A stretch of 64,000 nt of DNA from Flavobacterium flevense (GTDB lineage: Bacteria > Bacteroidota > Bacteroidia > Flavobacteriales > Flavobacteriaceae): positions 62,001 through 126,000 of the forward strand of contig NZ_FRCC01000008.1 in the NCBI RefSeq assembly GCF_900142775.1, given 5' to 3'. The number at the start of each line of letters is the position of its first letter. The stretch's first letter is position 1. The notes below the pieces were generated by a model. It did not search any database and was not told the DNA's origin. It saw only the letters and a program-made list of their open reading frames with translations. The translations under genes and the position numbers were made by a program. Below are positions 39,787-57,640 of the stretch, one piece after another.

Positions 39787-40251
39787 ATGAATTGGTATGT
39801 AGTATATACAAAACCAAAATGGGAGAAGAAAGTTGCGGAACAATTAACTCAAAAGGGAATAGAATGTTATTGTCCTTTAGTGACACAAGTGAGGCAGTGG
39901 ACTGACCGGAAAAAGAAAGTACAGGTTCCGCTTTTTAATTCTTATGTTTTTGTCCATTTGGAAGAAGCAGACAGAAACTTGGTTTTTCAGTCTACAGGAG
40001 TGGTACGTTATCTTTTTTGGTTAGGAAAACCCGCTGTTGTACTGGATCAGGAAATTAACACGATTAAAGAATGGTTGGGCTCTTCGGATAAATATGAGGT
40101 TTCCTTAACTCCTTTGCAGGTGGGAGACAGAATCATATTGGAATCAGGACCGTTTAAATCACAATCTGCCATAGTTCAGGAGGTGGGTAAATCACATTAT
40201 ATGTTGGTTTTAGAATCTATGGGATGTGTTTTAAAAATGAAATTAAAATAA
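39787..40251 (+). CDS. upxY: UpxY-family transcription antiterminator (NusG/RfaH paralogue)
   Basis: UpxY proteins bind RNA polymerase early in capsule operons and prevent premature termination, each for its own operon. The NGN domain starts NWYVVYTKPKWEKKVAEQL and has CYCPLVTQVRQWTDRKKKVQ and PLFNSYVFVHL. The C-terminal KOW-like domain has VGDRIILESGPFKSQSAIVQ. At 154 residues it is shorter than NusG and fits the specialised paralogues. It lies directly ahead of the downstream polysaccharide genes, the classical position. The 282-nt untranslated region after it may hold its target. Confidence 0.9.
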   Translation: MNWYVVYTKPKWEKKVAEQLTQKGIECYCPLVTQVRQWTDRKKKVQVPLFNSYVFVHLEEADRNLVFQSTGVVRYLFWLGKPAVVLDQEINTIKEWLGSSDKYEVSLTPLQVGDRIILESGPFKSQSAIVQEVGKSHYMLVLESMGCVLKMKLK

Positions 40252-42918: not shown

Positions 42919-45330
42919 ATGAAAAAAAGATATACATTCATTTTATTATTAGTCACTTTTTTACAATTTTCAACCGGATTTGCTCAGGATTTATTGAAAA
43001 GTGCAGATTTAAGTACTTTGAAAGTGGATAATTTAACTGAAGCTGATTTGTCCAAAATCAAAGCACAGCTGCAATCGAATAATATGACTTTAGATCAGGC
43101 TGAGCCAATGGCTTTGGCCAAAGGTATGTCTGCTGCCGAATTTTCAAAATTACGTGCCCGCTTGGCAAACCCAACAATAAGTGGAGGAAGTTCCGATACT
43201 AAGCCGCAGCTTCAAAAAATTGGAAGAACACAAGATAAAATCACTAATACAAAAGTGAAAGATTCTGTAAATGCATTGATTTTTGGATCGGAATTGTTTG
43301 ATAATCCAACATTGAATTTTGAACCCGATTTAAAATTAGCTACTCCCATGAATTACATCTTAGGTCCCGGAGATGAGTTACAAGTTAGTGTGTATGGCGT
43401 GCAAGAATACAATGAAAGTATTCCTGTAAGTGTTGAAGGAAAAATTACTATTCAATATGTAGGACAAATTGCGGTGTCAGGAATGACCATCGAAGCAGCT
43501 ACTCAAAAAATAAAAGCTGCTATTGCAAGAGTTTATAGTACGGTAGGTTCCGGACAATCACAGGTTAGTGTGAGTTTAGGTCGTATTCGTACCATTAAAA
43601 TCACCGTAGTAGGAGGAAAACAACCGGGGAATTATTCTATTTCTTCTTTAGGTACTGTGTATAATGCACTGCATTTAGCAGGAGGACCGGGGAGAAATGG
43701 AAGTTATAGAAATATTGAATTAATTAGAAACAATAAAGTATATAAAAATATTGATATTTACAGGTTTTTGGTCAAAGGGGATCAGTCTGATAATGTTAGT
43801 TTAAAAGACAATGATGTGATACGTATTCCTGCCTATAGTCAACGTGTTACTATAACGGGAGAGGTTAAGCGTCCCGGTATTTTTGAAATGAAAAAAGGGG
43901 AAACTTTTTCTGACTTAGTTAGCTTTGCTTCCGGTTTCAATGAAATAGCTTATACAGCATCAGTCAGTGTAACCCAAAAAACCAATAAGGAATTTAAAGT
44001 TCGTGATATTCTTAAAAGTGAATTCAACAGCTATCTTCCGCAGTCAGGTGATGTGTTTCATGTTTCTAAAATATTAAATCGTTTTGAAAACCGTATCACT
44101 ATTGAAGGAGCAGTTTTTAGACCCAATACTTATTCTTTTTACGAAGGAATGCGAATTTCTGATTTGGTAGCTAAAGCGGAAGGTTTAAAAGAAGATGCTT
44201 ATACACAAAGAGCACGTATTGTTCGTTTAAAAAGTGATTTGAGTACCGAAATTATAAATGCCAATTTAGCAGCGGCACTTTCAGGAGATTCAAATGCTGA
44301 TATTTTATTACAAAGAGAAGATATTGTGACTGTATATTCTGTTTTGGATTTCAGAGAAGAATACAATATTACGATAGCCGGTGAAGTGAAAAATCCCGGT
44401 GAGTATACGTATTTAGATAATTTAACTCTAAACGATTTGCTGGTACAGGCAGGTGGCTTAACAGGTTCAGCCTCTAAACGTGTCGAAATAGCAAGAATGG
44501 TGAAGTCAGATACTATTGATGATAGCAATCCCAACCGCATCGAACTGATTAATTTAGAGTTGACTCCTGAGAATAATGAACAGCTTAAAAACTATGCTTT
44601 AATGCCTTTTGATGTGATTAGCATCAGGAGAGTAGCTGTTTATGAAAAACCGCAAATGGTAAGCATTAGCGGAGCAGTGGTTTATCCGGGTAGTTATGTT
44701 TTAGAAAATAAAAAAGAAACGATTTATAATATTGTTTCCCGTGCCGGAGGATTGAAGGATATTGCGAATACTCATGGTGTCAAAATCAAAAGACCCCTTA
44801 AAGCAGAGCAGGTAGAACAATTAAAAAGTATTGATTTAAATTTACCTCTTTCAGATTCAAGTGCTGTGAATTCCAATGAAAAATTAAAGAATCAATTGAA
44901 GTATGCTACGATACCGGTAGATTGGAACAAAATTGAAAAAGACCCAAAACATTATTCTAATGTGACCTTATTTCCCGGAGATCAGATTGAAGTGGCTGAA
45001 TTTAATGAAGGTGTAAGAGTTTCCGGAAATGTGTTGCTGAACTCTGAAATTCCGTATCGAAAAGGCAAATCATTTAAATACTATTTAAGTTCAGTAGGTG
45101 GTGTAGATGCTAAAGGCTGGAAAAAGAAAGCCTACATTATCTATCCTAACGGAAAAGCAGATGTTACCGGTTCTTTCCTGTTTTTCAGATCCTATCCTAA
45201 AGTATTACCTGATTCTCAAATTATAGTACCTGAAAAACCGGAACGTAAAAAATTAAGTGCTGGGGAGGTAGTTGGTTTTGGAAGTGTGATTACCAGTTTA
45301 GCATTATTGATTATTACGGCTTTTAAATAA
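42919..45330 (+). CDS. Large SLBB-domain polysaccharide export protein
   Basis: This 803-residue secreted protein belongs to the polysaccharide export family with multiple SLBB domains. The signal peptide ends near STGFAQD. A helical region contains LSKIKAQLQSNNMTLDQAEP. The Poly_export domain (about residues 140-225) has YILGPGDELQVSVYGVQEYN. Four or more SLBB repeats follow, marked by ITGEVKRPGIFEMKKGE, IEGAVFRPNTYSFYEGM, IAGEVKNPGEYTYLDNL and ISGAVVYPGSYVLENKK. A hydrophobic C-terminal helix ends it. It is not a lipoprotein and is much larger than the first Wza-like gene, so it marks a second export system. Confidence 0.9.
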   Translation: MKKRYTFILLLVTFLQFSTGFAQDLLKSADLSTLKVDNLTEADLSKIKAQLQSNNMTLDQAEPMALAKGMSAAEFSKLRARLANPTISGGSSDTKPQLQKIGRTQDKITNTKVKDSVNALIFGSELFDNPTLNFEPDLKLATPMNYILGPGDELQVSVYGVQEYNESIPVSVEGKITIQYVGQIAVSGMTIEAATQKIKAAIARVYSTVGSGQSQVSVSLGRIRTIKITVVGGKQPGNYSISSLGTVYNALHLAGGPGRNGSYRNIELIRNNKVYKNIDIYRFLVKGDQSDNVSLKDNDVIRIPAYSQRVTITGEVKRPGIFEMKKGETFSDLVSFASGFNEIAYTASVSVTQKTNKEFKVRDILKSEFNSYLPQSGDVFHVSKILNRFENRITIEGAVFRPNTYSFYEGMRISDLVAKAEGLKEDAYTQRARIVRLKSDLSTEIINANLAAALSGDSNADILLQREDIVTVYSVLDFREEYNITIAGEVKNPGEYTYLDNLTLNDLLVQAGGLTGSASKRVEIARMVKSDTIDDSNPNRIELINLELTPENNEQLKNYALMPFDVISIRRVAVYEKPQMVSISGAVVYPGSYVLENKKETIYNIVSRAGGLKDIANTHGVKIKRPLKAEQVEQLKSIDLNLPLSDSSAVNSNEKLKNQLKYATIPVDWNKIEKDPKHYSNVTLFPGDQIEVAEFNEGVRVSGNVLLNSEIPYRKGKSFKYYLSSVGGVDAKGWKKKAYIIYPNGKADVTGSFLFFRSYPKVLPDSQIIVPEKPERKKLSAGEVVGFGSVITSLALLIITAFK

Positions 45331-45390
45331 TGTTGTCAGTTGTGGGTTGTGAGTTATCTGTTATAAAAAGGGATACTTATGAACGTAAAA

Positions 45391-45459
45391 CAGAGAATAG
45401 AGAATAGAGAATAGAGAATAGAATATAGAGAATAGAATATAGAGAATAGAATATAGAGG
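45391..45459. repeat. AATAGAG heptamer repeat array abutting a start codon
   Basis: About four copies of AATAGAG are followed by three copies of the 14-mer AATAGAATATAGAG. The run ends directly at the ATG of the Wzz-like gene. The preceding TTGTCAGTTGTGGGTTGTGAG (45333-45353) is another phrase-like run. The array occupies the place of the ribosome-binding region, so copy-number change could alter spacing and translation. Confidence 0.8.
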
Positions 45460-46527
45460 ATGGAAAATATGAATGAAAAATATCCAAACGACGAAATATC
45501 TCTTAAAGAATTAATAGAAAAGGGAAAAGAATGGTATCAATACCTGCTTTCGAAATGGAAAGTGATTGTATTGGCTGGCATTATAGGTGCTGCTTTGGGT
45601 CTTACTTATTCATTTATTAAAAAACCTATTTATACCGCTACTTTATCTTTTGCATTAGAAGATGAAAAATCCGGTGGAGGTATTGGTAGTTTGGCCAGTT
45701 CCTTTGGGCTGGATTTAGGAGGCAGTGGCGGTGGTGCTTTTTCAGCATCTAATTTGATTGAGTTGTTCAAATCCCGATCAATGGTGGAGAAAACCTTACT
45801 AAGTCCTGTAGTAGTAGATGGAAAGACTATTTCATTAGCAGAGATGTATATTCAAAATAATGAATGGCGTAAATCGTGGAAGAAAAATACAAATCTTGCA
45901 AAATTAGATTTTTTGCCTAATGCCAATCGACAAAAATTCACTCGGGTTCAGGATAGTATAATGGGGACAATGTATTCTATTTTATCTAAGTCCTCTTTGT
46001 CCGTAGCTCAAAAAGATAAAAAAATCTCTATTATCAGTATTGATGTTTCCTCTCAAAATGAATTGTTTTCAAAATATTTTTGTGAAGCTCTGGTAGATGA
46101 AGTATCTGATTTTTATGTGGAGACCAAAAGCAAAAAGGCCAGAGAAAACATGCTGATTTTAGAAAGACAAACCGATTCTGTCCGTAGGGAATTAAATGGA
46201 GCCATTACAGGCGTAGCGGTGGCTAATGATAATACTTTTAATTTGAATCCGGCTTTGAATGTACGTCGTGCTCCATCGGCAAGAAGACAGGTTGACGTAC
46301 AGGCTAATACAGCTATTTTATCTGAATTGGTTAAGCAAACAGAACTGGCTAAAGTAAGTCTTCGTAAAGAAACGCCTTTAATTCAGGTGATTGATCGGCC
46401 TATTTTACCCTTGGCTAAAGAAAGATTTGGTAAGGCTAAAGGAATAGTTTTAGGTGGGTTTTTGGCTGGGTTTTTAACAGTACTGGGATTAATAGTAAAA
46501 CGGTTTTTGAAAGAGTTATCGTTGTGA
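45460..46527 (+). CDS. Wzz-type chain-length determinant without kinase domain
   Basis: The protein is a polysaccharide co-polymerase that sits in the inner membrane. It has two membrane helices, WKVIVLAGIIGAALGLTYSF (about residues 32-52) and GIVLGGFLAGFLTVLGLIVK near the C-terminus. The periplasmic domain between them has SARRQVDVQANTAILSELVKQ before the second helix. The Pro-rich PLIQVIDRPILPLAKERFG motif directly before the second helix is typical of Wzz. At 355 residues it lacks the tyrosine kinase of the 34045 gene. It follows the SLBB gene, and the two likely form the second export pair. Confidence 0.9.
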   Translation: MENMNEKYPNDEISLKELIEKGKEWYQYLLSKWKVIVLAGIIGAALGLTYSFIKKPIYTATLSFALEDEKSGGGIGSLASSFGLDLGGSGGGAFSASNLIELFKSRSMVEKTLLSPVVVDGKTISLAEMYIQNNEWRKSWKKNTNLAKLDFLPNANRQKFTRVQDSIMGTMYSILSKSSLSVAQKDKKISIISIDVSSQNELFSKYFCEALVDEVSDFYVETKSKKARENMLILERQTDSVRRELNGAITGVAVANDNTFNLNPALNVRRAPSARRQVDVQANTAILSELVKQTELAKVSLRKETPLIQVIDRPILPLAKERFGKAKGIVLGGFLAGFLTVLGLIVKRFLKELSL

Positions 46528-46579
46528 TATAGCTATCAACTATATTTTGTGAAATTATTAATATTTTTAGAATTATAAA

Positions 46580-47767
46580 ATGAATATTCTTAAACTAATT
46601 GGACGAGATGCAGAAATATTTGAAAATGATATTGCTGTTTATGAAATGGAATTAATTACTATTATCCAATCGTCAAGTTTTCTTGTAATAGGTGGCGCCG
46701 GATCTATAGGTCAGGCTGTTACTAAAGAATTATTCAAAAGAAATCCTAAAAAGTTACATGTTGTTGATATTAGTGAAAACAATATGGTAGAATTAGTAAG
46801 AGATTTAAGAAGTTCATATGGCTATATTGATGGTGATTTTCAAACTTTCGCATTAGATATTGGTTCTGTGGAATATGATGCATTTATTAATGCTGATGGT
46901 CAATTTGATTATGTTTTAAATTTATCCGCATTAAAACATGTTAGAAGTGAGAAAGATCCGTTCACTTTGATGCGAATGATTGATGTGAATGTTTTTAATA
47001 CCGAAAAGACACTGCAACAATCTATAGACAAGAGAACAAAGAAATATTTTTGTGTTTCAACTGATAAAGCAGCTAATCCTGTAAATATGATGGGAGCTTC
47101 TAAGCGAATCATGGAAATGTATTTGATGCGAAAAAGTTTAGATATCAAAATTTCCACGGCTCGTTTTGCTAATGTAGCTTTTTCTGATGGTTCTTTGTTG
47201 CATGGTTTTAATCAAAGGATTTTGAAAAAACAACCTATAGTAGCACCAAATGATATTAAAAGATATTTTGTTACACCTAAAGAATCAGGTGAGCTTTGTT
47301 TAATGTCCTGTATTTTTGGAGAGAACAGAGATGTTTTCTTTCCGAAGTTAAGCGAAAATTTACATTTGATTTCTTTTGCTGATATAGCGGTTAAATATTT
47401 AAATGAAATTGGTTACGAGCCCTATTTGTGCAAAACTGAAGCTGAAGCAAGAGATAATGTTGAAGAGTTAATAAAGCAAAAAAAATGGCCTTGTTTATTT
47501 ACAGAAAGCGATACTACAGGAGAAAAAGATTTTGAAGAATTTTTTACCGATAGCGAAATTTTAGATATGCAACGTTTTGAGAATTTTGGTGTTATTAAAA
47601 ATGAGGCTAACTTTGATGAAATTAAATTAGAAGAATTTACTGTTAAAATTAATAAAATGAAAGCTGATAAAAAGTGGGTAAAAGAAGAAATTGTAGATAT
47701 GTTTCATACTATGATTCCTAATTTTGGACATAAGGAAACAGGCAAATATTTAGATTCAAAAATGTAA
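46580..47767 (+). CDS. legB: NDP-GlcNAc 4,6-dehydratase (LegB-like)
   Basis: LegB removes water from an NDP-GlcNAc to give the 4-keto-6-deoxy sugar that starts legionaminic acid synthesis. The Rossmann motif GGAGSIGQAVTKEL lies at about 38-51. LSALKHVRSEKDPF and STDKAANPVNMMGASKR are the CapD/PglF-type active-site segments, where Met replaces the SDR Tyr and Lys is kept. The protein has 395 residues. In C. jejuni the LegB substrate is GDP-GlcNAc, and the PtmE-like guanylyltransferase at 51647 suggests the same here. A UDP-GlcNAc 4,6-dehydratase of another pathway is the alternative. legC follows after 2 nt. Confidence 0.85.
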   Translation: MNILKLIGRDAEIFENDIAVYEMELITIIQSSSFLVIGGAGSIGQAVTKELFKRNPKKLHVVDISENNMVELVRDLRSSYGYIDGDFQTFALDIGSVEYDAFINADGQFDYVLNLSALKHVRSEKDPFTLMRMIDVNVFNTEKTLQQSIDKRTKKYFCVSTDKAANPVNMMGASKRIMEMYLMRKSLDIKISTARFANVAFSDGSLLHGFNQRILKKQPIVAPNDIKRYFVTPKESGELCLMSCIFGENRDVFFPKLSENLHLISFADIAVKYLNEIGYEPYLCKTEAEARDNVEELIKQKKWPCLFTESDTTGEKDFEEFFTDSEILDMQRFENFGVIKNEANFDEIKLEEFTVKINKMKADKKWVKEEIVDMFHTMIPNFGHKETGKYLDSKM

Positions 47768-47769
47768 TT

Positions 47770-48912
47770 ATGAGTGCTATTAATTCAGCTATATCTTTTA
47801 TAAAGCAGCAATATAAAACTGAAAATTTTATACCATTGCATGTTCCGCATTTTGGAGGTAATGAGAAAAAATATTTATTAGAAACCATAGATTCCACTTT
47901 TGTCTCCTCTGTTGGTGCTTTTGTAGACCAATTTGAGGTAACAATGCAAAATATCACCCAGACACAAAAAGCTGTCGCGGTAGTAAATGGCACTGCTTCA
48001 ATTCAGGTTGCTTTGCGCTTAATTGGAGTTAAGGCTGGTGATGAGGTATTAACCCAAGCGCTAACTTTTGTAGCTACAGCAAATGCTATTGCTTATCAAA
48101 ATGCAACTCCTGTATTTTTAGATGTTGATCTCGATACAATGGGATTATCGCCAAAAGCCGTTTCGGTTTTTTTGGAAGAATTTGGAGAATTACGTGAAGA
48201 TGGTTGTTACAATAAAAAAACACAAAAAAAGATAAGTGCTTGCTTACCTATGCATACTTTTGGATTTCCTGTTCATCTGGACGAATTAATTGCTGTTTGT
48301 AACGCATGGAAAATTCCAGTTCTAGAAGATGCCGCTGAGTCTTTAGGAAGCGAGTACAAAGGAAAACCAACAGGAAGTTTTGGTAAGTTAGGAGCTTTTT
48401 CATTCAATGGAAACAAGATTGTTACATGCGGAGGAGGAGGAGCTATTGTTACGAATGACTTTAAGCTAGGAGAGAAAGGAAAGTATTTAACTACTACTGC
48501 AAAAATTCCACATCCCTATGAATATGTACATGATGAGATGGGGTATAATTTTAGAATGCCAAATTTGAATGCTGCTCTAGCTTGTGCACAATTAGAACAA
48601 CTAAATGTTTTTCTTGAAAATAAAAGAAAATTGGCAAAAGAATATGAATCTTTTTTTGATACTAACGGTATAAAATTTAGAACTGAAACCCCGGATACTA
48701 AAGCTAATTATTGGTTGATGTGTGTAGAATTAGAAAATAAAGCTGAGCGGGATTTATTTTTAAAATCTACAAATGAAAATGGAGTAATGACACGACCAAT
48801 ATGGCAATTAATGTTTCGCTTACCAATGTATTCTCATTGTCAAAAAGATGGACAAAAGAATGCAATGTTTTTAGAGGAAAGAATAGTTAATATACCAAGC
48901 AGTGTCAGATAA
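47770..48912 (+). CDS. legC: PLP-dependent sugar aminotransferase (LegC-like)
   Basis: LegC transfers an amino group to C4 of the LegB product. It is a DegT/DnrJ/EryC1 family enzyme with FIPLHVPHFGGNEKKYLLET, an N-terminus typical of the LegC subgroup. Further motifs are AVVNGTASIQVALRL, VLEDAAESLGSEYKGKPTGS and the PLP lysine in GAFSFNGNKIVTCGGGGAI. The protein has 380 residues. It overlaps legH by 11 nt, so translation is coupled. Confidence 0.88.
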   Translation: MSAINSAISFIKQQYKTENFIPLHVPHFGGNEKKYLLETIDSTFVSSVGAFVDQFEVTMQNITQTQKAVAVVNGTASIQVALRLIGVKAGDEVLTQALTFVATANAIAYQNATPVFLDVDLDTMGLSPKAVSVFLEEFGELREDGCYNKKTQKKISACLPMHTFGFPVHLDELIAVCNAWKIPVLEDAAESLGSEYKGKPTGSFGKLGAFSFNGNKIVTCGGGGAIVTNDFKLGEKGKYLTTTAKIPHPYEYVHDEMGYNFRMPNLNAALACAQLEQLNVFLENKRKLAKEYESFFDTNGIKFRTETPDTKANYWLMCVELENKAERDLFLKSTNENGVMTRPIWQLMFRLPMYSHCQKDGQKNAMFLEERIVNIPSSVR

Positions 48913-49525
48913 AGAAATAATTCTTGTAGGCTATTCTGGGCATGCATATGTGGTTGCCGATACTATTTTGGATAGTGGGTATAGTATTGCGGGATATTCA
49001 GATAGGCAAAAAGCAAATTTAGATCCTTATAACTTAATATATTTAGGATTCGAAAAAGAAACAGATTTTATCGGATGGTTCAGTGAAATCCCTTTTGCAC
49101 TTGGGATTGGAGACAATAAAATAAGACAAAGTGTTGCAAATTTAATTGAAGAGAATGGAAAAATAGTTGAAACTATTATAGATAAGACAGCTGTTATTTC
49201 TAAAAATGTTTTAATTGGATCGGGTACTTTTATTAATAAAAATGTAATTATTAATGCTCTTGTCAAAGTTGGTAAAAATGTAATTTTGAATAGCGGTTGT
49301 ATCATTGAACATGAATGTATTTTACAAGATGCTGTTCATATTGCACCGGGAGCAGTTTTAGCTGGAAATGTTACGATTGGGGAAAGAAGTTTTGTTGGAG
49401 CAAATGCTGTAATAAAACAAGGAGTCACTATAGGCAAAGATGTTGTTATAGGTGCAGGATCTGTTATTATAGCGAATGTCCCTGATGGAAAGAAAGTTGT
49501 TGGTAATCCAGGGAGAATAATATAA
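48902..49525 (+). CDS. legH: NeuD/PglD-family sugar N-acetyltransferase (LegH-like)
   Basis: LegH acetylates the 4-amino group made by LegC. The N-terminal Rossmann-like part has IILVGYSGHAYVVADTILDS. The left-handed beta-helix has repeated hexapeptides (VLIGSGTFINKNVIINALVKVG) and the catalytic His in GCIIEHECILQDAVHIAPGA. The protein has 207 residues. It starts with GTG at 48902 within the end of legC. I favour this start because the strand KEIILVGYSGHA must follow immediately. Confidence 0.85.
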   Translation: MSDKEIILVGYSGHAYVVADTILDSGYSIAGYSDRQKANLDPYNLIYLGFEKETDFIGWFSEIPFALGIGDNKIRQSVANLIEENGKIVETIIDKTAVISKNVLIGSGTFINKNVIINALVKVGKNVILNSGCIIEHECILQDAVHIAPGAVLAGNVTIGERSFVGANAVIKQGVTIGKDVVIGAGSVIIANVPDGKKVVGNPGRII

Positions 49526-49527
49526 CT

Positions 49528-50547
49528 ATGAATAGAGTAATAATAATAGCGGAAGCTGGAGTAAACCATAATGGTGATATTAATATAGCTAAGCAATTAA
49601 TTGATGCGGCAGTTGATGCAGGTGTTGACTATGTGAAATTTCAAACGTTTAAGGCAGATAGTTTAGTTAGTAAGTCTGCTAAAAAAGCAGATTATCAAAC
49701 GGCTAACATAGGTGATAATGATGATTCTCAATATAATATGCTTAAAAATTTAGAATTAAGCCATGAGAATCATTTAGAATTAATGTCATACTGTGAGAAA
49801 AAAAAAATTAATTTTTTTTCAACAGCATTTGACGTAGAGGGTGTAAAATATTTAAATGATTTAGGATTGTCGTTTTTTAAAATTCCAAGTGGAGAAATAA
49901 CAAACTATCCCTATTTAAGAGAAATTGCTTTATTTGGAAAGCCAGTTATCATGTCTACTGGCATGTGTTCTGAAATTGAAGTAAAAAATGCTTTAGAGGT
50001 TTTAATTAAATTTGGATTAAAAAAAGAGCAAATTTCAATTTTGCATTGCAATACGGAATATCCAACTCCAATGAAAGATGTTAATCTGAAAGCGATGTTA
50101 AATATAAAAGATATTTTCGATGTAGAAATTGGATACTCAGATCATACATTGGGAATAGAGGTTCCTATTGCTGCGGTAGCTTTGGGAGCTAAAATAATAG
50201 AAAAACATTTTACTTTAGACAGGTCTTTGCCTGGTCCTGATCATTTGGCATCACTAGAACCTGAAGAGTTAAAAGCGATGGTTAAAGCCATTAGGAATAT
50301 AGAATCTGCAATTAGTGGGAGTGGAGTTAAAATTCCAAGTGAAAGTGAAACTAAAAATATTTTAATTGCAAGGAAAAGTATTCATCTTAATAAAAACTTG
50401 CCTAAAGGATCAGTTTTAACTGAGAACGATATTATTTCATTGAGACCCGGAAATGGAGTTTCTCCGATGGAGTGGGAAAATATTATTGGTAAAGCTCTTC
50501 TGGTTGATAAAAATGAATTTGATACACTTTTAGCATCCGATATTTAA
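49528..50547 (+). CDS. legI: N,N'-diacetyllegionaminate synthase (NeuB family, LegI-like)
   Basis: The enzyme condenses phosphoenolpyruvate with the six-carbon 2,4-diacetamido sugar to form the nine-carbon nonulosonic acid. The NeuB barrel has IIAEAGVNHNGDINIAKQLI, DYVKFQTFKADSLVS, FKIPSGEITNYPYLREIA, STGMCSEIEV and HCNTEYPTP, ending with IIEKHFTLDRSLPGPDH. The C-terminal SAF (antifreeze-like) domain covers about 285-339 with LPKGSVLTENDIISLRPGNG. At 339 residues it is full length. Assignment to legionaminate rather than sialate rests on the neighbouring legB and legC genes. Confidence 0.9.
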   Translation: MNRVIIIAEAGVNHNGDINIAKQLIDAAVDAGVDYVKFQTFKADSLVSKSAKKADYQTANIGDNDDSQYNMLKNLELSHENHLELMSYCEKKKINFFSTAFDVEGVKYLNDLGLSFFKIPSGEITNYPYLREIALFGKPVIMSTGMCSEIEVKNALEVLIKFGLKKEQISILHCNTEYPTPMKDVNLKAMLNIKDIFDVEIGYSDHTLGIEVPIAAVALGAKIIEKHFTLDRSLPGPDHLASLEPEELKAMVKAIRNIESAISGSGVKIPSESETKNILIARKSIHLNKNLPKGSVLTENDIISLRPGNGVSPMEWENIIGKALLVDKNEFDTLLASDI

Positions 50548-51650
50548 TGAAATTAGGCGTTTTAACAAGTTCAAGAGCAGACTACGGAATATATCTTCCT
50601 TTGCTTCAAAAAATTAAAAAAGATAGTTTTTTTAAATTGGAGATTATTGCATTTGGTACACATATGTCCCGAAGTCATGGTTATACCTTTAGTGATATTG
50701 AAAAAGAAGGATATAATTGTATTCATAAAATTTCTTCTTTAATTTCAAATGACGACGAAGAATCCATCAGTTCTTCCTATGGTTTAACAGTTTTGAAATT
50801 TGCTGATTTTTGGTCAAAAAACACTTATGATTTAGTTTTTTGTTTGGGTGATCGTTTTGAAATGAGTGCTGCTGTACAGTCAGGAATTCCTTTTGGGATA
50901 AAATTTGCGCACATACACGGAGGAGAAACTACATTGGGGGCAATAGACAATGTGTACCGTCATCAGATTACATTAGCTTCAAAGTTGCATTTTACAGCTA
51001 CGGATATTTTTAAGAACAAAGTAGTTGATTTAATCGGTTCATCAGAGGGTGTTTTTGACGTTGGTTCTTTGAGTTTAAATGATATTAAATCTTTTACTCC
51101 AATAAAAAGAGAGGTCTTCTTTGAAAAATTTAATATACCTAATGAAGAATTCGCTCTAGTGACTTTTCATCCAGAGACGATGTCGGTGCATGAGAATGGT
51201 CAATATGCACTAGAGATGAAAAATGCATTGATGACAATTTCAGAAAAGATATTTGTAATTATTACTATGCCCAATGCCGATACACAGGGATCTGTTTATA
51301 GAGAAGCCATAGAAAAATTGAAAAATGAAAAATCAAACCATTTTTTGTTAATTGAAAATTTTGGAAAGCTTAATTATTTCTCCGCGATGCATTATGCTAA
51401 AATTTTGATTGGGAATACTTCCAGCGGAATTTTGGAAGCTGCATCTTTTTGTAAATATGTTGTTAATGTGGGGGACAGGCAAAAAGGTAGGGTGCAAAGT
51501 AAAAATGTTATAAATTGTGAATTTGAAGAAAAAGCAATTGTTTCTTCTGTTAAAAAAGCAATTGAATTTAAAGCGTATACTGGAGAGAACATTTATTTTA
51601 AATTGGATGCAGCAGATAATATAATTAAAATTATTAAACAATTCACATGA
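50547..51650 (+). CDS. legG: Hydrolysing NDP-sugar 2-epimerase (NeuC/LegG-like)
   Basis: LegG inverts C2 and releases the nucleotide to give the free 2,4-diacetamido-2,4,6-trideoxymannose used by LegI. The GT-B fold has LGVLTSSRADYGIYLPLLQK, VFCLGDRFEMSAAVQSGIPF, AHIHGGETTLGAIDNVYRHQ and TFHPETMSVHE. The C-terminal half has LIGNTSSGILEAASFCKYVV. The protein has 367 residues. Its ATG overlaps the legI stop by one base and its end overlaps the next gene by 4 nt. NeuC acting on UDP-GlcNAc would look very similar; context decides. Confidence 0.88.
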   Translation: MKLGVLTSSRADYGIYLPLLQKIKKDSFFKLEIIAFGTHMSRSHGYTFSDIEKEGYNCIHKISSLISNDDEESISSSYGLTVLKFADFWSKNTYDLVFCLGDRFEMSAAVQSGIPFGIKFAHIHGGETTLGAIDNVYRHQITLASKLHFTATDIFKNKVVDLIGSSEGVFDVGSLSLNDIKSFTPIKREVFFEKFNIPNEEFALVTFHPETMSVHENGQYALEMKNALMTISEKIFVIITMPNADTQGSVYREAIEKLKNEKSNHFLLIENFGKLNYFSAMHYAKILIGNTSSGILEAASFCKYVVNVGDRQKGRVQSKNVINCEFEEKAIVSSVKKAIEFKAYTGENIYFKLDAADNIIKIIKQFT

Positions 51651-52693
51651 GAATTTATAAAGACCACTTAATTCTTTCAGGAAGTAAAATAAAGCAGGCT
51701 TTACTTCAGTTCAATGAACTGTCACAAGATGCGATACTTTTTGTTGTTGATAATGAAGATAAATTAATAGGAGCATTAACAGATGGAGATGTTAGAAGAG
51801 GTTTGCTAAAAGGATTTACAATAGAATGTAATGTTGATGAGATTATTCAAGATAATCCAAGATATATTGTCAAAGGTGAAAATAATCTTGAAAAAGTTAT
51901 AGAATATCGCGAAGGTGATTTTAGAATTGTACCAGTTGTTGATGAAAATCGCAAAGTTTTAAATGTTATAAATTTTAGGAAAATCCGGTCATATTTACCA
52001 ATTGATGCTGTTATTATGGCTGGAGGAAGAGGACAAAGACTGCAACCATTAACGGATACAGTTCCAAAACCCCTTTTAAAAGTTGGAGATAAACCAATAA
52101 TGGAACATAATCTTGATCGATTAGCTTTATTTGGAATTGATGATTTTTGGGTGTCTGTAAAATATCTTGGCGAACAAATTGAACAACATTTTGGAAAAGG
52201 TGAAAACAAAAATGTAAAAATTGAATATGTTTGGGAAAATGAACCTTTAGGGACTATTGGAGCTGTTTCACAAATTAAGAATTTTGAACATGATTATATT
52301 CTTGTTACTAATTCTGATTTGTTGACTAATATAGATTATGAACAATTTTTTCTTGAATTTATAAGACAAGATGCTGATTTAGCTGTTTTAACAATTCCAT
52401 ATCAGGTTAATATTCCATACGCAGTTTTAGAAACAAATAAAGGTGAAGTAAAAAGTTTTAAAGAAAAGCCAACATATACTTATTACTCAAATGGCGGGAT
52501 ATATCTGATTAAAAAGCCAATGTTAAATTTCATTCCAAAAGAAGCATTTTTTAATGCAACTGATTTGATGGAAGAATTAATTAGCAAAAATCTAAAAGTT
52601 ATTTCATTTCCTTTTTCTGGTTATTGGTTAGATGTTGGTAAACATGAGGATTTTGAAAAAGCTCACATAGATATTCATAACATAAAATTTTAA
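51647..52693 (+). CDS. ptmE: CBS-domain nucleotidyltransferase (PtmE-like GlcN-1-P guanylyltransferase)
   Basis: The first 115 residues form paired CBS domains (ILFVVDNEDKLIGALTDGDV and FRIVPVVDENRKVLNVINF). The rest is a sugar-phosphate nucleotidyltransferase with VIMAGGRGQRLQPLTDTVPK, PLLKVGDKPIMEHNLDRL and LVTNSDLLTNIDYEQF. The protein has 348 residues. C. jejuni PtmE has this layout and makes the GDP-amino sugar that feeds the GDP-specific LegB pathway. Its presence suggests the pathway here also runs on GDP-linked intermediates. The CBS pair implies nucleotide sensing. Confidence 0.85.
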   Translation: MRIYKDHLILSGSKIKQALLQFNELSQDAILFVVDNEDKLIGALTDGDVRRGLLKGFTIECNVDEIIQDNPRYIVKGENNLEKVIEYREGDFRIVPVVDENRKVLNVINFRKIRSYLPIDAVIMAGGRGQRLQPLTDTVPKPLLKVGDKPIMEHNLDRLALFGIDDFWVSVKYLGEQIEQHFGKGENKNVKIEYVWENEPLGTIGAVSQIKNFEHDYILVTNSDLLTNIDYEQFFLEFIRQDADLAVLTIPYQVNIPYAVLETNKGEVKSFKEKPTYTYYSNGGIYLIKKPMLNFIPKEAFFNATDLMEELISKNLKVISFPFSGYWLDVGKHEDFEKAHIDIHNIKF

Positions 52694-52694
52694 A

Positions 52695-53417
52695 ATGAAA
52701 ATATTAATAACTATTTGTGCCAGAGGAGGGTCTAAAGGGATACCAGGTAAAAATATAAAAGATATAAATGGTAAGTCATTGATAGGATATTCGATTGATC
52801 TAACAAAAAAAATAAAAGAGAAATTTGATATAAAAGTAGCTTTATCAACAGATGATCAAGCTATAAAACAAAAAGCTGAGTTTTTTGGTTTAAATACTAA
52901 TTATATTCGGCCAGATTATTTAGCGACAGATACTGCAGGGAAAATAGATACTATAAAAGATTTGTTGCTTTATGAAGAATCGATAGCTGGTGATAAGTAT
53001 GATTTTATTTTAGATCTTGATGTTACTTCACCTTTACGAACTCTCGAAGACATTGAAAACTCTTTAAGTCTTATTCTTGAAAATCCTGAAGCCTTAAATT
53101 TATTTTCTGTAAACCCAGCTGCTAGAAGTCCGTATTTTAACATGGTTGAGAGAAACGGTGAAGGTTTTTATTCATTAGTAAAAACCAATCCTGACGGAAG
53201 TGTTATGACTCGTCAATCTGCACCAAAAGTCTACGATTTAAACGCATCATTTTATTGGTACAGGAGATCTTTTTTTGATAGAAATATAAAAAGTGCAATT
53301 ACAGACAGATCTTTAATTTATGAAATGAATCATATATGTTTTGACTTAGATCATCCTGTTGATTTTCTATTTATGGAATATCTTCTTCAAAACAATAAAC
53401 TTGATTTTAAAATATGA
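52695..53417 (+). CDS. legF: CMP-legionaminate synthase (acylneuraminate cytidylyltransferase family)
   Basis: The enzyme activates the nonulosonic acid with CTP to the CMP donor used by glycosyltransferases. The signature ICARGGSKGIPGKNIKDING occupies the N-terminus, followed by IKVALSTDDQAIKQKAEFF, FILDLDVTSPLRTLEDIENS and NASFYWYRRSFFD. At 240 residues it is a single catalytic domain. It starts one base after ptmE and overlaps the next gene by 4 nt. Preference for legionaminate over sialate is inferred from the pathway genes. Confidence 0.88.
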   Translation: MKILITICARGGSKGIPGKNIKDINGKSLIGYSIDLTKKIKEKFDIKVALSTDDQAIKQKAEFFGLNTNYIRPDYLATDTAGKIDTIKDLLLYEESIAGDKYDFILDLDVTSPLRTLEDIENSLSLILENPEALNLFSVNPAARSPYFNMVERNGEGFYSLVKTNPDGSVMTRQSAPKVYDLNASFYWYRRSFFDRNIKSAITDRSLIYEMNHICFDLDHPVDFLFMEYLLQNNKLDFKI

Positions 53418-54337
53418 ACATACTGATCATAGGACTAGGTTCAATTGCTAGAAAACATATCTATGCTTTACAAAGTTTAAGTTTAGATATTAATATATAC
53501 GCATTAAGATCAAATATAAATTCAGAAATCGAAAAAAAAATTGAAAATATTTATAATCTTGATAATTTAGAAATTTCTTTTGATTTTGCTATAATCTCAA
53601 ATCCCACTCATTTGCATTTTGAGTTTATTGAAAAATTAGCAAAACTAAATATTCCTTTATTTATTGAAAAACCTGCAGTGCATAATTTAAAAGATATTGG
53701 TGAATTAATTAAGTTAATTGAGAGTAAACGACTTATTACTTATGTTGCTTGTAATTTAAGATTTCATCCTTGTATTGGATATTTAAAAAATAAATTAAGT
53801 GATGAGTATTTAAAAATTAATGAAGTAAATGTTTATTGTGGCTCATATTTACCAGATTGGAGGCCTAACGTAGATTTTAGAAAAGTATACAGCGCAAATG
53901 CATCGATGGGCGGTGGTGTACATTTAGATTTATTCCATGAATTAGACTATGTTAATTGGTTGTTTGGGACACCAAATCAAACTAATTCTACTTTAAGAAA
54001 TGTTTCAAGTTTGCAGATTAATGCCATTGATTATGCTAACTATATATTAGAGTATAGTACATTTACAGCGAACATTGTTCTAAATTATTATAGAAAGAAA
54101 GCAAAAAGAGTAATTGAAGTAGTTTTTGATAATGAGATTCTAGAAGTTGATTTAATTAACAGTAAAATTGTTGATAATAATGATGAAATTATTTTTGAGA
54201 CTCCAAATTTTGACATAAGAAATACATACAATTATCAGCTAGATTATTTTATAAATTGTTTAAAAGAAAATATAGCACCAATGAATTCTCTTAGAGAATC
54301 TGTTGAAATATTAAAAATTGTATTGAAAGATGAATAA
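53414..54337 (+). CDS. Gfo/Idh/MocA-family oxidoreductase (PtmF-like)
   Basis: The N-terminal Rossmann fold has ILIIGLGSIARKHIYALQSL, ISNPTHLHFEFIEKLAKL and the EKP motif in PLFIEKPAVHN. The C-terminal alpha/beta domain has GGGVHLDLFHELDYVNWLFG with the conserved His. The protein has 307 residues. C. jejuni flagellar loci carry a similar gene, ptmF, next to ptmA and the leg genes. Its reaction is not firmly known, so neither is this one. The sequence is very AT-rich compared with the ribosomal region. Confidence 0.75.
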   Translation: MNILIIGLGSIARKHIYALQSLSLDINIYALRSNINSEIEKKIENIYNLDNLEISFDFAIISNPTHLHFEFIEKLAKLNIPLFIEKPAVHNLKDIGELIKLIESKRLITYVACNLRFHPCIGYLKNKLSDEYLKINEVNVYCGSYLPDWRPNVDFRKVYSANASMGGGVHLDLFHELDYVNWLFGTPNQTNSTLRNVSSLQINAIDYANYILEYSTFTANIVLNYYRKKAKRVIEVVFDNEILEVDLINSKIVDNNDEIIFETPNFDIRNTYNYQLDYFINCLKENIAPMNSLRESVEILKIVLKDE

Positions 54338-55073
54338 TAGATTAAAAAATAAGATAATTGTTATAACAGGAGGAAATGGTCTTTTAGGTAAAGCAATTAT
54401 TAGCAGATTAATTTCTGAAGGTGCCTTTTGTATTAATTTTGAAATTAATCACGATACAAACGAAGATTTGTCAAATGTTTATTGTGATATAACTGATACT
54501 GAATCAATCGATACTGCATTAGAAATAGTCTTAAAGAAATATAAAAAAATTGATGGGCTTGTAAACAATGCTTATCCTAGGACAAAAGACTGGGGAAATA
54601 AATTTGAAGATATTGTTTTTGAATCTTGGAAGCAAAATGTTGATTGGCAACTGAATAGTTATTTTTATTTAACACAGAAAGTTGCTTCAAAAATGGCTAG
54701 TCAAAAAACGGGAAGTATCATTAATATGTCCTCTATTTATGGAGTTGTTGGGCCCGACTTCGGTGTTTATGAAGGAACTACGATGACTATGCCGGCAGCT
54801 TATTCAGCTATAAAGGGAGCATTGGTGAATTTTACAAGATATGTGGCATCTTACTTTGGACCACAGCAAGTTAGGGTAAATGCTGTTTCTCCGGGTGGAA
54901 TTTTTGATAATCAAAACGAAATTTTTGTCAATAATTATTGTAAGAAAGTACCAATGAGAAGATTGGGAACCCCTGAAGATATTGCTCCTACAGTTGCTTT
55001 TTTACTATCTGATGATTCACAATATATCACAGGGCAGAACTTAATTGTCGATGGAGGCTGGACAGCCATTTAA
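54330..55073 (+). CDS. Short-chain dehydrogenase (PtmA-like)
   Basis: This is a classical SDR of 247 residues. It has IVITGGNGLLGKAIISRL, the NNAYPRTKDWG segment replacing NNAG, the Ser of NMSSIYGVVGPDFG and the YSAIKGALVNFTRYVA active-site pair. The end is GQNLIVDGGWTAI. Its insertion around VYEGTTMTMPAA and the position beside the Gfo/Idh gene match PtmA of C. jejuni. The substrate is unknown. It overlaps the previous gene by 8 nt. Confidence 0.78.
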   Translation: MNNRLKNKIIVITGGNGLLGKAIISRLISEGAFCINFEINHDTNEDLSNVYCDITDTESIDTALEIVLKKYKKIDGLVNNAYPRTKDWGNKFEDIVFESWKQNVDWQLNSYFYLTQKVASKMASQKTGSIINMSSIYGVVGPDFGVYEGTTMTMPAAYSAIKGALVNFTRYVASYFGPQQVRVNAVSPGGIFDNQNEIFVNNYCKKVPMRRLGTPEDIAPTVAFLLSDDSQYITGQNLIVDGGWTAI

Positions 55074-55107
55074 TATAAATTAAAGTATATAAAAAATAAA
55101 TAGTGTA

Positions 55108-56253
55108 ATGAGCGAAAAGAAAATAACTTGGTGTAAGAATTGTTTAAATATGTCTACTAGACCTAGAATTTCGTTTGATGATAGGGGATGGTGTAATGCT
55201 TGTCAGTGGATGGAAGAAAAAAAACAAATAGATTGGTCACAAAGACAAAAACAACTGGATGAATTAATTATTAAATATAAGTCTACAAACGGAAATTTTG
55301 ATTGTATTGTACCTGTAAGTGGTGGTAAAGACGGTTCATATGTTGCATATATGTTAAAGCATAAATATGGTATGAATCCTCTGGCGGTTACAGTGCGTCC
55401 TGCTTTATCGTTACCAATTGGAGATCAAAATCTTTTTAATTTTATCCAATCAGGATATGATCATATTCATATTTCTCCCAATCCAGTTGTGTTAGACAGA
55501 CTTAATAAGTACGGTTTTATCGAAAAAGGATTTCCTTATTATGGATGGTTAATTGCTATTATGACTGCTTGTATAAAAACTGCGGCTAATTTTAAGATAC
55601 CATTAATGTTTTATGGTGAAGATGGTGAAGTTGAGTATGGTGGTTCTACAGAGAGTAAAAATAATCCCCTTTATGATATCGAATATATGAAAAAGATATA
55701 TTTAGAAGGAGGACATCAAATAGTTTTTGATAGAATTAGAGCAGATGGTGATATTTCTGAAGCTGATTTAGCTTTTTTTAAATTTCCTACTGATGAAGAA
55801 GTTTCAAAAATTGGACTTTCTTTTACACATTGGTCTTATTTTGAAGCTTGGGATTCTTATAGAAATTATGTTGTAGCAAAAGAACATTGTGGATTAATTG
55901 AAAAAGAAGAAGGAAGTGTAGATACTTTTACTAACTTTTCACAAAATGATCAGGCATTATATACTTTACATGCTTATTTGATGTATTTAAAATTTGGATT
56001 TGGGCGTGCAACTCAAGATGCTGGTATAGAAATCAGAAGAGGATCAATGACAAGAGATCAGGCATTGAATTTAGTAAAAATGTATGATAATGCTTATCCT
56101 CATGATTTAATAGATGTATTTTTAGATTATTATAAAATGACTAAAGAAGAATTTGATGCGGTTTTAGATAAATATGCAAACAAAGATTTATTTGAGAAAA
56201 TAGATGGAATTTGGTCACCTAAATTTACACCAGGAGAAGATTTTACGATATGA
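55108..56253 (+). CDS. wbuX: N-acetyl sugar amidotransferase (WbuX/PseA family)
   Basis: These enzymes turn a sugar N-acetyl group into an acetamidino group using ATP and ammonia from a glutaminase partner. The N-terminal zinc-type CKNC...CNAC pairs lie in the first 35 residues (CKNCLNMSTRP, GWCNACQW). The ATP pyrophosphatase loop is VPVSGGKDGSYVAYML. Further conserved pieces are YGEDGEVEYGGSTESKNNPL and FGFGRATQDAGIEIRRG. The protein has 381 residues. It overlaps the HisH-like gene by 4 nt. PseA/PtmG in C. jejuni act on pseudaminic or legionaminic precursors, so legionaminate is the likely substrate. Confidence 0.88.
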   Translation: MSEKKITWCKNCLNMSTRPRISFDDRGWCNACQWMEEKKQIDWSQRQKQLDELIIKYKSTNGNFDCIVPVSGGKDGSYVAYMLKHKYGMNPLAVTVRPALSLPIGDQNLFNFIQSGYDHIHISPNPVVLDRLNKYGFIEKGFPYYGWLIAIMTACIKTAANFKIPLMFYGEDGEVEYGGSTESKNNPLYDIEYMKKIYLEGGHQIVFDRIRADGDISEADLAFFKFPTDEEVSKIGLSFTHWSYFEAWDSYRNYVVAKEHCGLIEKEEGSVDTFTNFSQNDQALYTLHAYLMYLKFGFGRATQDAGIEIRRGSMTRDQALNLVKMYDNAYPHDLIDVFLDYYKMTKEEFDAVLDKYANKDLFEKIDGIWSPKFTPGEDFTI

Positions 56254-56861
56254 AAATTGTGATAGCCGATTACGGCATGGGAAATATAAAATCCATTATC
56301 AGTGCCTTGAACTATCTAGGTGCTGATAATATTGTAGTCTCTGCAGATTATGAAACGCTTAAAATTGCTGACAAAATAATTCTTCCAGGCGTTGGATCAT
56401 TTAGAAAAGCAATGATTCAAATTAGGGAGAATAATCTCGATAAATATCTCGAAGAACTAGCAGTAGAAAATAATAAACCTTTAATTGGAATTTGTCTGGG
56501 AATGCAGCTTTTAGGAACTTCAAGTACAGAGGATGGTTTTACAGAGGGACTTGGATTTGTGAATGCACATTGTATAAAGTTTGATAATACCGATTTAAAA
56601 GTTCCTCATGTAGGATTTAATCAATTGAAAACAGATTCCGAATCAAAACTGTATGCTGGATTACCAAATGAATCGGACTTTTATTTTACCCACAGCTACA
56701 AAATGGTTAGTGAGAACGAAATAAACCAATCTTACTGTCATTATGGTTCTGACTTTATTGCAAGTTTTGAATACAATAATATTGTGGGTGTACAATTTCA
56801 TCCTGAACTTAGCCAAAAAAATGGCTTAAGATTGTTGAAAAATTTTATTGAAAAATTCTAA
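56250..56861 (+). CDS. wbuY: HisH-like glutamine amidotransferase (ammonia donor, WbuY)
   Basis: The class-I glutaminase of 203 residues resembles HisH of imidazole-glycerol-phosphate synthase. It has IADYGMGNIKSIISALNYLG, LPGVGSFRKAM and the nucleophile Cys82 in GICLGMQLLG. Glu and His lie in GVQFHPELSQKNG, so the triad is complete. It lies in a polysaccharide locus between the amidotransferase and a degenerate HisF, not in a his operon. It most likely supplies ammonia for acetamidino formation. Confidence 0.9.
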   Translation: MKIVIADYGMGNIKSIISALNYLGADNIVVSADYETLKIADKIILPGVGSFRKAMIQIRENNLDKYLEELAVENNKPLIGICLGMQLLGTSSTEDGFTEGLGFVNAHCIKFDNTDLKVPHVGFNQLKTDSESKLYAGLPNESDFYFTHSYKMVSENEINQSYCHYGSDFIASFEYNNIVGVQFHPELSQKNGLRLLKNFIEKF

Positions 56862-57640
56862 TGTTAAGAAAAAGAATAATATTCGCATTAATTTATAGTG
56901 ATGGTTTTTTTATGCAAAGCCGTAACTTTAGATTGCAGAAAGTAGGTAACTTAAATTGGCTTGAGAAAAATTACAAATTTCAAAATATTGCCTTTTCCTT
57001 AGATGAATTAGTGGTCTTAAATGCAACTCGTCAAAACAAATCAATTACAGGTTTTGCAAAAACTATCGAAAACTTGGTAAACGATGTTTTTATTCCAATT
57101 GCAGCTGGTGGAGGGATTAGATCAGTGGAAGATGCAGAATTACTTTTTAAGAGTGGGGCTGATAAGATTGTTTTGAATACAGCCTTACATACAAATCCAG
57201 AATTAGTAGAAGCATTGGTGAAAAAATATGGATCACAAAGTATTGTAGCTTCAATTGATTATAAGAAAAACGATGGAAATTTTGAAGTATATATTAATGA
57301 CGGAGGCACTAAGATAGATCTTAATTTAGAAGATTACCTAAACTATTTGGAGAGACTTGAAGTAGGAGAAATTTATTTAAATTCTATTGAACAAGATGGT
57401 ACCGGATTTGGATACGATTTTGACACAATTGAAAAGTTCGAATCAAAAATTAAAATACCTCTTATAATTGCTGGAGGTGCTGGTAATGAATCTCATTTTA
57501 TGGATGGATTAAAATATAAAAATGTTAGTGCTGTTGCTACTGCAAATTTATTTAATTTCATTGGAGATGGTCTCCCAAAAGCAAGATTAAAATTAATTGA
57601 ATCTGGTGAAAATTTAGCAAATTGGAATGTTAATAATTGA
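56861..57640 (+). CDS. wbuZ: HisF-like barrel lacking cyclase residues (WbuZ, glycosyl amidation)
   Basis: The 259-residue protein aligns from its first residue with HisF. The HisF catalytic Asp11 is Ile11 here and Lys19 is Gln19. The ammonia-gate residues equivalent to Arg5, Glu46, Lys99 and Glu167 are kept (KRIIF, DELVVLN, ADKIVLNT, VGEIYLNS), as are the Asp130-equivalent in ASIDYKK and the DGTGFGYD loop. This fits a barrel that docks the HisH glutaminase and passes ammonia on without making imidazole glycerol phosphate. It overlaps the next gene by 14 nt. Confidence 0.9.
   Translation: MLRKRIIFALIYSDGFFMQSRNFRLQKVGNLNWLEKNYKFQNIAFSLDELVVLNATRQNKSITGFAKTIENLVNDVFIPIAAGGGIRSVEDAELLFKSGADKIVLNTALHTNPELVEALVKKYGSQSIVASIDYKKNDGNFEVYINDGGTKIDLNLEDYLNYLERLEVGEIYLNSIEQDGTGFGYDFDTIEKFESKIKIPLIIAGGAGNESHFMDGLKYKNVSAVATANLFNFIGDGLPKARLKLIESGENLANWNVNN

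Follow-up and report, generated by a model that had tools for sequence, protein, structure and literature searches.

A Flavobacterium flevense gene cluster predicted to make an acetamidino 8-epi-legionaminic acid, and an oxidoreductase pair that follows the LegF subtype

Introduction

Which nonulosonic acid (NulO) is made by the twelve-gene run at positions 46580..57640 of the 64,000-nt stretch of Flavobacterium flevense analyzed here (contig NZ_FRCC01000008.1, positions 62,001 to 126,000; hereafter the window)? An earlier note on this DNA had read the run as a pathway for an acetamidino legionaminic acid (Leg), with two oxidoreductases described as PtmF- and PtmA-like and a legionaminic pathway logic known from Campylobacter. 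The product of the cluster is very probably a surface sugar that resembles sialic acid and bears an unusual positively charged group, and the Leg-type NulO set and the amidination trio indeed lie in the same run. The Leg configuration is another matter. The 8-epimer is better supported, since the genes for a Gfo/Idh/MocA dehydrogenase (Gfo, PtmF-like) and an SDR dehydrogenase (SDR, PtmA-like) go together with a subtype of LegF, the transferase of cytidine monophosphate (CMP) to the NulO, and separate 8-epi-legionaminic acid (8eLeg) from Leg in two Escherichia coli serotypes. On balance, the product is probably CMP-activated acetamidino 8eLeg, most likely CMP-8eLeg5Am7Ac (acetamidino group at C5, N-acetyl group at C7), destined for a surface polysaccharide whose export genes lie in the same locus. 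We regard this assignment as a supported prediction drawn from the sequence.

Oxidoreductase Pair and LegF Subtype

At least 532 relatives of the first gene of the cluster (gene 1, a sugar dehydratase) were found in named genomes, and 80 loci with relatives 77–91% identical were kept for comparison. Together with the window, 60 of these loci contain LegF (set 1). Both Gfo and SDR are present in 26 of them ("pair"), 24 have neither ("none", defined as neither family being represented in a locus that continues for at least 2200 nt after LegF), 6 have only one of the two ("part"), and 4 end too early ("short"). The last two classes were left unscored, which leaves 50 loci; the six genes of the enzyme comparison are all present in 48 of these. 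These 48 loci and four E. coli loci constitute the 52 rows for which FastTree trees were built and compared with 100 label shuffles.

The LegF tree including the E. coli sequences falls into two parts (support 94 in the Shimodaira–Hasegawa-like approximate likelihood ratio test, SH-aLRT). One side comprises all 28 pair rows and a single additional locus, L064; the other holds all 26 rows without the pair and the remaining part and short rows. On this tree the pair label requires one change, compared with 12 on the tree of the synthase LegI, 12 for the 2-epimerase LegG, 11 for the nucleotidyltransferase PtmE, 15 for the aminotransferase LegC, and 13 for the dehydratase, all for the same 52 rows. 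Shuffled labels gave means of 17.1–17.6 changes and minima of 12–13. As the rows of a tree are related to each other, such counts are not numbers of independent events.

The coupling was also observed in a second set of 28 regions, hand-picked from 48 rows (43 distinct places) by skipping look-alikes of set 1. None of these regions is a copy of a set 1 locus, the best blastn match being 87.0% over at least 700 nt. Seven regions lack LegF and were not scored; in the remaining 21, LegF was sorted by two profiles, A and B, built from set 1. Gfo and SDR are both present in all nine loci nearer to profile A, and neither is found in any of the 12 loci nearer to profile B, so that all 21 loci agree. 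In a combined, careful LegF tree of 85 rows, 75 of them scored, the pair label again requires one change. The gene order near LegF varies by lineage, being either LegF-Gfo-SDR or PtmE-Gfo-LegF-SDR.

Inversion of a secondary alcohol can be achieved by two dehydrogenases acting on the same hydroxyl. Gfo residues E85-K86-P87, H175, and D178, as well as SDR residues S135, Y158, and K162, are invariant in 28 of 28 rows; we assume the catalytic roles usually attached to them, and both proteins appear to retain what is expected of functional dehydrogenases. The sequence comparisons suggest that the pair is a C8-epimerizing module acting near CMP activation.

Comparison with Known Producers

Matches were found in 27 E. 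coli genomes, and four loci were read, one from each of four identity-based groups. The O61-annotated locus carries the pair in the order PtmE-Gfo-LegF-SDR, and the O61 antigen contains 8eLeg5Ac7Ac (PMC3628348). This locus resembles the F. flevense cluster in its dehydratase (76% identical), LegC, an acetyltransferase at the NeuD position, LegI, LegG, PtmE, Gfo, a LegF of the pair group, and SDR. The two differ in sequence (LegF, Gfo, and SDR are 38, 31, and 39% identical, respectively) and in arrangement, with the order NeuC-NeuB-acetyltransferase and Gfo ahead of LegF in O61, where WbuX, HisH, and HisF are not annotated in the region read. The O161-annotated locus shares the dehydratase type (74% identical to that of the cluster), LegC, LegG, LegI, and a PtmE-type protein, whereas the Gfo/SDR pair is not annotated there and LegF belongs to the other group; the sugar in the O161 antigen is Leg that bears an N-acetyl group at C5 and a D-alanyl group at C7 (PMC10609480). 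The NT1F31 locus also lacks the pair, and its dehydratase, LegC, LegG, LegI, and PtmE are 67–81% identical to those of O61, as opposed to 35% for LegF. The MSI001 group has the pair, but the stretches read carry no O-type annotation, and so it was not used as sugar evidence.

Outside E. coli, the O-antigen of Vibrio fischeri contains 8eLeg (PMC7940393), and PtmA, NeuA, and a PtmF homologue are listed for this species in Table 5 of PMC4481668. We favor C8 over C4 as the inverted position solely because the pair carriers with a known sugar other than Campylobacter, i.e., E. coli O61 and, by the literature, V. fischeri, make 8eLeg. An acetamidino product of the type predicted here, 8eLeg5Am7Ac, is made by Aliivibrio salmonicida, whose Leg-pathway cluster is described as including PtmE and a NeuA pseudogene (PMC7371886). 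In Acinetobacter baumannii, lgaABCDEFG is predicted to yield Leg, and lgaABCDEF together with elaABC to yield 8eLeg; a putative oxidoreductase is encoded by elaA (PMC9676051). Conversion of pseudaminic acid (Pse) into its 8-epimer (8ePse) by EpaA and EpaB was demonstrated by nuclear magnetic resonance; EpaA is a fusion of a CMP-transferase with an aldo-keto reductase, and EpaB is an SDR (PMC12053666). The likeness of these Acinetobacter systems to the F. flevense cluster is one of logic, a CMP-transferase and oxidoreductases added to a NulO core changing the C8 epimer; EpaA differs in being a fusion protein and prophage-encoded.

Predicted Pathway

From the families present we infer the following route. 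PtmE would make the nucleoside diphosphate (NDP)-N-acetylhexosamine (HexNAc) precursor, which the dehydratase, LegC, and NeuD would convert into NDP-2,4-diacetamido-2,4,6-trideoxyglucose. LegG would then remove NDP with 2-epimerization, and LegI would condense the sugar with phosphoenolpyruvate to form Leg5Ac7Ac. Gfo and SDR would invert C8 of the free or CMP-bound NulO: one of them would form a ketone at this carbon, which the other would reduce from the opposite face, and the accompanying LegF subtype would be adapted to the product. The predicted configuration is L-glycero-D-galacto, as opposed to D-glycero-D-galacto in Leg. WbuX, given ammonia by the HisH/HisF-like pair, would turn one N-acetyl group into an acetamidino group, presumably that at C5.

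A more general scheme may be drawn from the 36 first-set loci with an SDR family member. All of them encode a further enzyme that could act on a ketone, namely Gfo (27 loci), a class-III aminotransferase (7 loci), or a Gfo-like protein (2 loci), with families assigned from single representatives, which suggests that SDR makes a ketone and its partner sets the fate of that ketone. We tentatively propose that the PtmA-like SDR might oxidize C8 and the partner decide the outcome, the 8-epimer with Gfo or an 8-amino NulO with the aminotransferase; PtmF and PtmA would then have been misassigned to precursor supply. As a whole this scheme is possible and somewhat doubtful.

Alternative Explanations

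Several observations weigh against a C8-epimerizing pair tied to LegF and a NulO-directed trio. The pair label is non-random also on the LegI, LegG, and PtmE trees, where it lies one change below the lowest shuffle (13, 13, and 12, respectively), and so a weak signal is present there too, far apart from that of LegF. Distant Gfo- or SDR-like tblastn matches (22–30% identity) occur in 7 of the 36 loci classed as "none" in the two sets, although never both in one locus: Gfo-like in L010, L025, L028, L037, and L042, SDR-like in L057 and L060, and none in the 12 loci of set 2. L064, placed within the pair group, has Gfo and no SDR seen in the approximately 1.1 kb of contig after LegF, and in L041 the pair adjoins a CTP_transf_3 protein from outside the LegF group. 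The comparison of the pair with the sugar covers two E. coli serotypes, O61 and O161, whose sugars are known. The HisF-like protein of the trio scores below the specific cut-offs (234 vs. 300 bits for WbuZ, 166 vs. 310 for AglZ/HisF2). Furthermore, 10 of the 12 Flavobacteriaceae genomes with WbuX above cut-off have no relative of gene 1, and hence the trio often serves other sugars. A standing conflict is that Campylobacter, reported to make Leg, carries PtmF and PtmA; PMC4481668 assigns PtmA of C. jejuni to the guanosine diphosphate (GDP)-N-acetylglucosamine (GlcNAc) segment of the pathway and lists PtmF and PtmA for C. coli.

This conflict underlies the explanation in which the product is Leg5Am7Ac and the oxidoreductases merely help to make GDP-GlcNAc, which we consider unlikely. 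It draws on the assignment of PtmA to the first pathway segment (PMC4481668, Table 5) and on a ptmA insertion mutant of Plesiomonas shigelloides that, like the legH mutant, has no flagella (same source). The cluster resembles the Campylobacter CMP-Leg system by the names used in the literature (LegC, LegI, LegG, PtmE, LegF, and the PtmF- and PtmA-like genes), and in a similar gene order; it differs in its dehydratase, which is of another family, in the PtmA model, which falls under its cut-off, and in the predicted configuration of the product. Against it, the pair tracks the LegF tree (1 change) much better than that of PtmE (11 changes), many clusters carry PtmE and no pair, and E. coli O161, with Leg in its antigen, combines a PtmE-type protein with absence of the pair. 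The Campylobacter logic is not supported for the oxidoreductases.

Less likely still is a NulO that stays di-N-acetylated, with the trio acting on a different sugar within the glycan, e.g., N-acetyl-L-fucosamine (L-FucNAc). The acetamidino sugar L-FucNAm is described in the O-antigen of Flavobacterium columnare (PMC10609480), and the occurrence of WbuX in genomes without gene 1 agrees with such a role. However, the trio lies within the NulO run, WbuX accompanies NulO loci elsewhere (18 of 81), the full twelve-gene order recurs in 3 of 80 and 2 of 28 loci, and no FnlA above cut-off was detected among the proteins scanned with NCBIfam, an incomplete scan that included five proteins of the downstream stretches L003–L005. 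A third explanation, in our view equally improbable, holds that the pair is a hitch-hiking cassette whose members act elsewhere, for instance at C4 or on another sugar, and were passed on with LegF as its neighbors. The three genes lie side by side, so that co-transfer could yield the same pattern without shared function, and the tail of the cluster from PtmE on looks block-exchanged between Flavobacterium lineages. Yet the order around LegF differs between lineages, PtmE is weakly coupled although it adjoins Gfo in the PtmE-Gfo-LegF-SDR order, and the contrast between O61 and O161 points to C8. Acetamidino 8eLeg, with the pair acting at C8, is our preferred assignment.

Gene Content of the Cluster

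All twelve genes are co-directional, as the earlier note had stated, and tightly packed (Table 1). Ten of the 11 junctions overlap or are at most 2 nt long, the exception being 34 nt ahead of WbuX; in order, they are 2 nt, overlap 11, 2 nt, overlap 1, overlap 4, 1 nt, overlap 4, overlap 8, 34 nt, overlap 4, and overlap 1.

Table 1. Features of the cluster and of the export genes ahead of it. Profile results are given in bits against the curated cut-off.
Feature	Position	Strand	Evidence
SLBB/Poly_export protein and Wzz-type chain-length protein (surface polysaccharide export)	42919..46527	+	PF02563, PF10531, PF02706
NDP-HexNAc 4,6-dehydratase of the 3PVZ/Elg1/WvaM type, in place of LegB (gene 1)	46580..47767	+	PF02719, 149 bits; 704 bits to PDB 3pvz, residues 2-395
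LegC aminotransferase	47770..48912	+	TIGR04181, 528 vs. 420
NeuD/PglD-type N-acetyltransferase (LegH role)	48902..49525	+	TIGR03570, 201 vs. 160.8; GTG start
NulO synthase (LegI/NeuB)	49528..50547	+	TIGR03569, 474 vs. 400; PseI 295, under 340
Hydrolyzing 2-epimerase (LegG/NeuC)	50547..51650	+	TIGR03568, 370 vs. 236
PtmE-like CBS and sugar-1-phosphate nucleotidyltransferase	51647..52693	+	PF00571 and PF00483 (NTP_transferase)
CMP-NulO transferase (LegF)	52695..53417	+	PF02348; within the pair-carrying group of the LegF tree
Gfo/Idh/MocA dehydrogenase (PtmF-like), proposed half of C8 epimerization	53414..54337	+	PF01408
SDR dehydrogenase (PtmA-like), proposed other half of C8 epimerization	54330..55073	+	PRK09186, 269 vs. 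255; PtmA model 174, under 350
WbuX-type N-acetyl sugar amidotransferase (acetamidino formation)	55108..56253	+	TIGR03573, 353 vs. 203; 188 bits to PDB 8wex
HisH-like glutaminase of the trio	56250..56861	+	TIGR01855, 216 vs. 105
HisF/WbuZ-like partner of the trio	56861..57640	+	best family WbuZ, 234, under 300

The enzymes support a full NulO set that, judged by its profiles and motifs, appears to belong to the Leg type and not to the Pse type. LegC, the N-acetyltransferase, the synthase, and the 2-epimerase named in the earlier note all exceed their cut-offs, both domains of PtmE were found in gene 6, and the oxidoreductases belong to the Gfo and SDR families, the PtmA model itself falling short. 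The earlier note would have been refuted by best matches of the synthase and CMP-transferase to Pse or sialic acid enzymes in the absence of support from LegB or LegC. This was not the outcome: the synthase does match the sialic acid synthase model TIGR03569 and LegB fails, but LegC holds. The TIGR03569 and TIGR03568 models do not distinguish the sialic acid type (Neu) from Leg. In the cluster, all models of the Pse pathway remain below cut-off (PseB 69/408, PseC 191/424, PseI 295/340, and PseF 81/206, the last being the best specific CMP-transferase model for LegF, none of which reaches its cut-off). In the IPSGEI motif of the synthase, Gly aligns to the position occupied by Phe in the PseI structure 8h2c, and Gly is the state described for Neu and Leg synthases (PMC7371886). 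A Pse product was rejected on these grounds. At position 184, the second residue discussed in that paper, alignment by eye gave Thr, unlike the residues named there for Leg and Pse.

The identification of gene 1 as LegB did not survive: TIGR04180 has no match in this protein, and the best score in the whole genome is 144 vs. 475. Its nearest solved structure is 3pvz, which we take to be a V. fischeri protein and whose length agrees within a few residues. The sequence contains a T-(x)9-M-(x)3-K motif described for this class of dehydratases (PMC7439481). A 395-aa P. shigelloides dehydratase with the homologues WvaM and Elg1 is named LegB in Table 5 of PMC4481668; because of its similar length and the 76% identity to the E. 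coli O61 enzyme, gene 1 is placed in the same family as WvaM and Elg1. A C5-inverting dehydratase as the source of the 8-epi configuration is not favored, since the O161 (Leg) and O61 (8eLeg) enzymes are 78% identical and the Met/Lys active-site motif is common to inverting and retaining dehydratases (PMC7439481).

In the amidotransferase trio, WbuX and HisH exceed their cut-offs as anticipated, while the HisF partner is best matched by WbuZ at a score under its cut-off. WbuX with HisH- and HisF-like partners is a known amidination set, and here WbuX is the sole TIGR03573 match in the genome. HisH above cut-off occurs twice, on the cluster contig (C24) and on contig C17, and a separate HisF above cut-off (354 bits) lies on C17; the trio proteins are thus extra copies. 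Among the 81 loci, those with WbuX (18, including the window) were recognized by matches of at least 250 aa. The trio label requires 7–10 changes on seven trees (shuffled means 11.1–13.8) and is not tied to any single enzyme tree, and so it gives no indication as to which of C5 and C7 bears the amidino group; in the F. flevense cluster the trio would act on the NulO, presumably at C5. Among the papers matching legionaminic acid and Flavobacterium in a full-text search, no title or abstract opening announces an acetamidino NulO from Flavobacterium. The WbuX protein is 97.6–99.5% identical to those of L009, L011, and L016, whose dehydratase is 84–85% identical; in L009 only 69% of the codons for identical residues match, which indicates strong protein constraint.

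Distribution and Mosaic Structure

The same core recurs beside gene 1 relatives in other species, and the association of the twelve genes is not due to chance. Family members are present in the 81 loci, some of them on short contigs, as follows: LegC in 78, PtmE in 73, LegI in 73, LegG in 66, NeuD in 65, LegF in 60, SDR in 36, and Gfo in 28. The exact twelve-gene order was observed in L009, L011, and L016, and in the further loci L152 and L156. Among 397 Flavobacteriaceae genomes, 18 contain gene 1, 12 contain WbuX above cut-off, and 2 have both.

Compared with L011 and L016 in 250-nt steps, nucleotide identity is 68–88% over 46501–51500. At approximately 51500, the LegG/PtmE border, it leaps from about 73–74% to 91–97%, which is held across PtmE; from there to the end of HisF it varies between 75 and 98%. 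The same stepwise comparison with L009 shows no jump at PtmE. The tail of the cluster has apparently been exchanged between Flavobacterium lineages, PtmE being the candidate crossover region.

Other arrangements of the tail were also noted. In L012, L015, L017, L024, L031, L038, and L040, SDR is paired with one aminotransferase family (class III and PRK06209-like in L015), and some of these clusters add another family, represented in L015 by a carbon–nitrogen hydrolase; 8-amino nonulosonic acids are a possible product of these seven clusters. In L041, L043, L055, and L065, the usual LegF position after PtmE is taken by another family, of which the L041 member is a second NeuB-like protein, followed in that locus by a 465-aa protein unmatched in both Pfam and NCBIfam and by another CTP_transf_3 protein.

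Surroundings of the Cluster

The run of open reading frames extends beyond 57640, the next one overlapping the HisF/WbuZ-like gene by 14 nt. Downstream are hexapeptide acyltransferases and a 515-aa protein without matches, a putative flippase; farther on, stretch L003 encodes a GT2-type glycosyltransferase and dTDP-rhamnose genes, the latter recognized by eye. Given these genes and the export genes upstream, the region is a surface polysaccharide locus. Close to its head, a 154-aa NusG-family protein (39787-40251) is possibly a locus-specific antiterminator. A 389-aa protein at 59725-60894 is a candidate NulO transferase; it contains HP and serine/threonine motifs known from bacterial sialyltransferases, is unmatched in Pfam and NCBIfam, and shares 37% identity with part of L017. 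On the same contig, a CMP-transferase/KdsC-phosphatase fusion (L004:18156-19313, ~158 kb) scores above the general YrbI cut-off and below that for KDN-9-phosphatase, and a second NeuB-like synthase (L005:895-1770, ~161 kb) is below cut-off; the two suggest a second sugar, resembling sialic acid or ketodeoxynonulosonic acid (KDN), in this genome region.

Implications

Leg and 8eLeg have identical mass, and the m/z of 450 given for the LegAmAc quinoxaline (PMC7371886) reveals the acetamidino group but not the epimer. What is added here is the coupling of the pair to LegF across phyla and its link to the PtmF- and PtmA-like genes; extra genes beside a Leg core that give epimers are already in print for Acinetobacter, with biochemical elucidation of the acinetaminic and 8-epiacinetaminic acid pathways still described as needed (PMC5595891). 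If Gfo and SDR form a C8-epimerization module, the epimer would be predictable from a genome sequence, the step could be studied with two small enzymes, and the role of PtmA and PtmF in flagellar glycosylation of Campylobacter and Plesiomonas would be reopened. Under the more general scheme, in which SDR makes a C8 ketone, some legionaminic acids assigned by mass in pair carriers, possibly including the flagellin sugar of P. shigelloides, would be 8eLeg.

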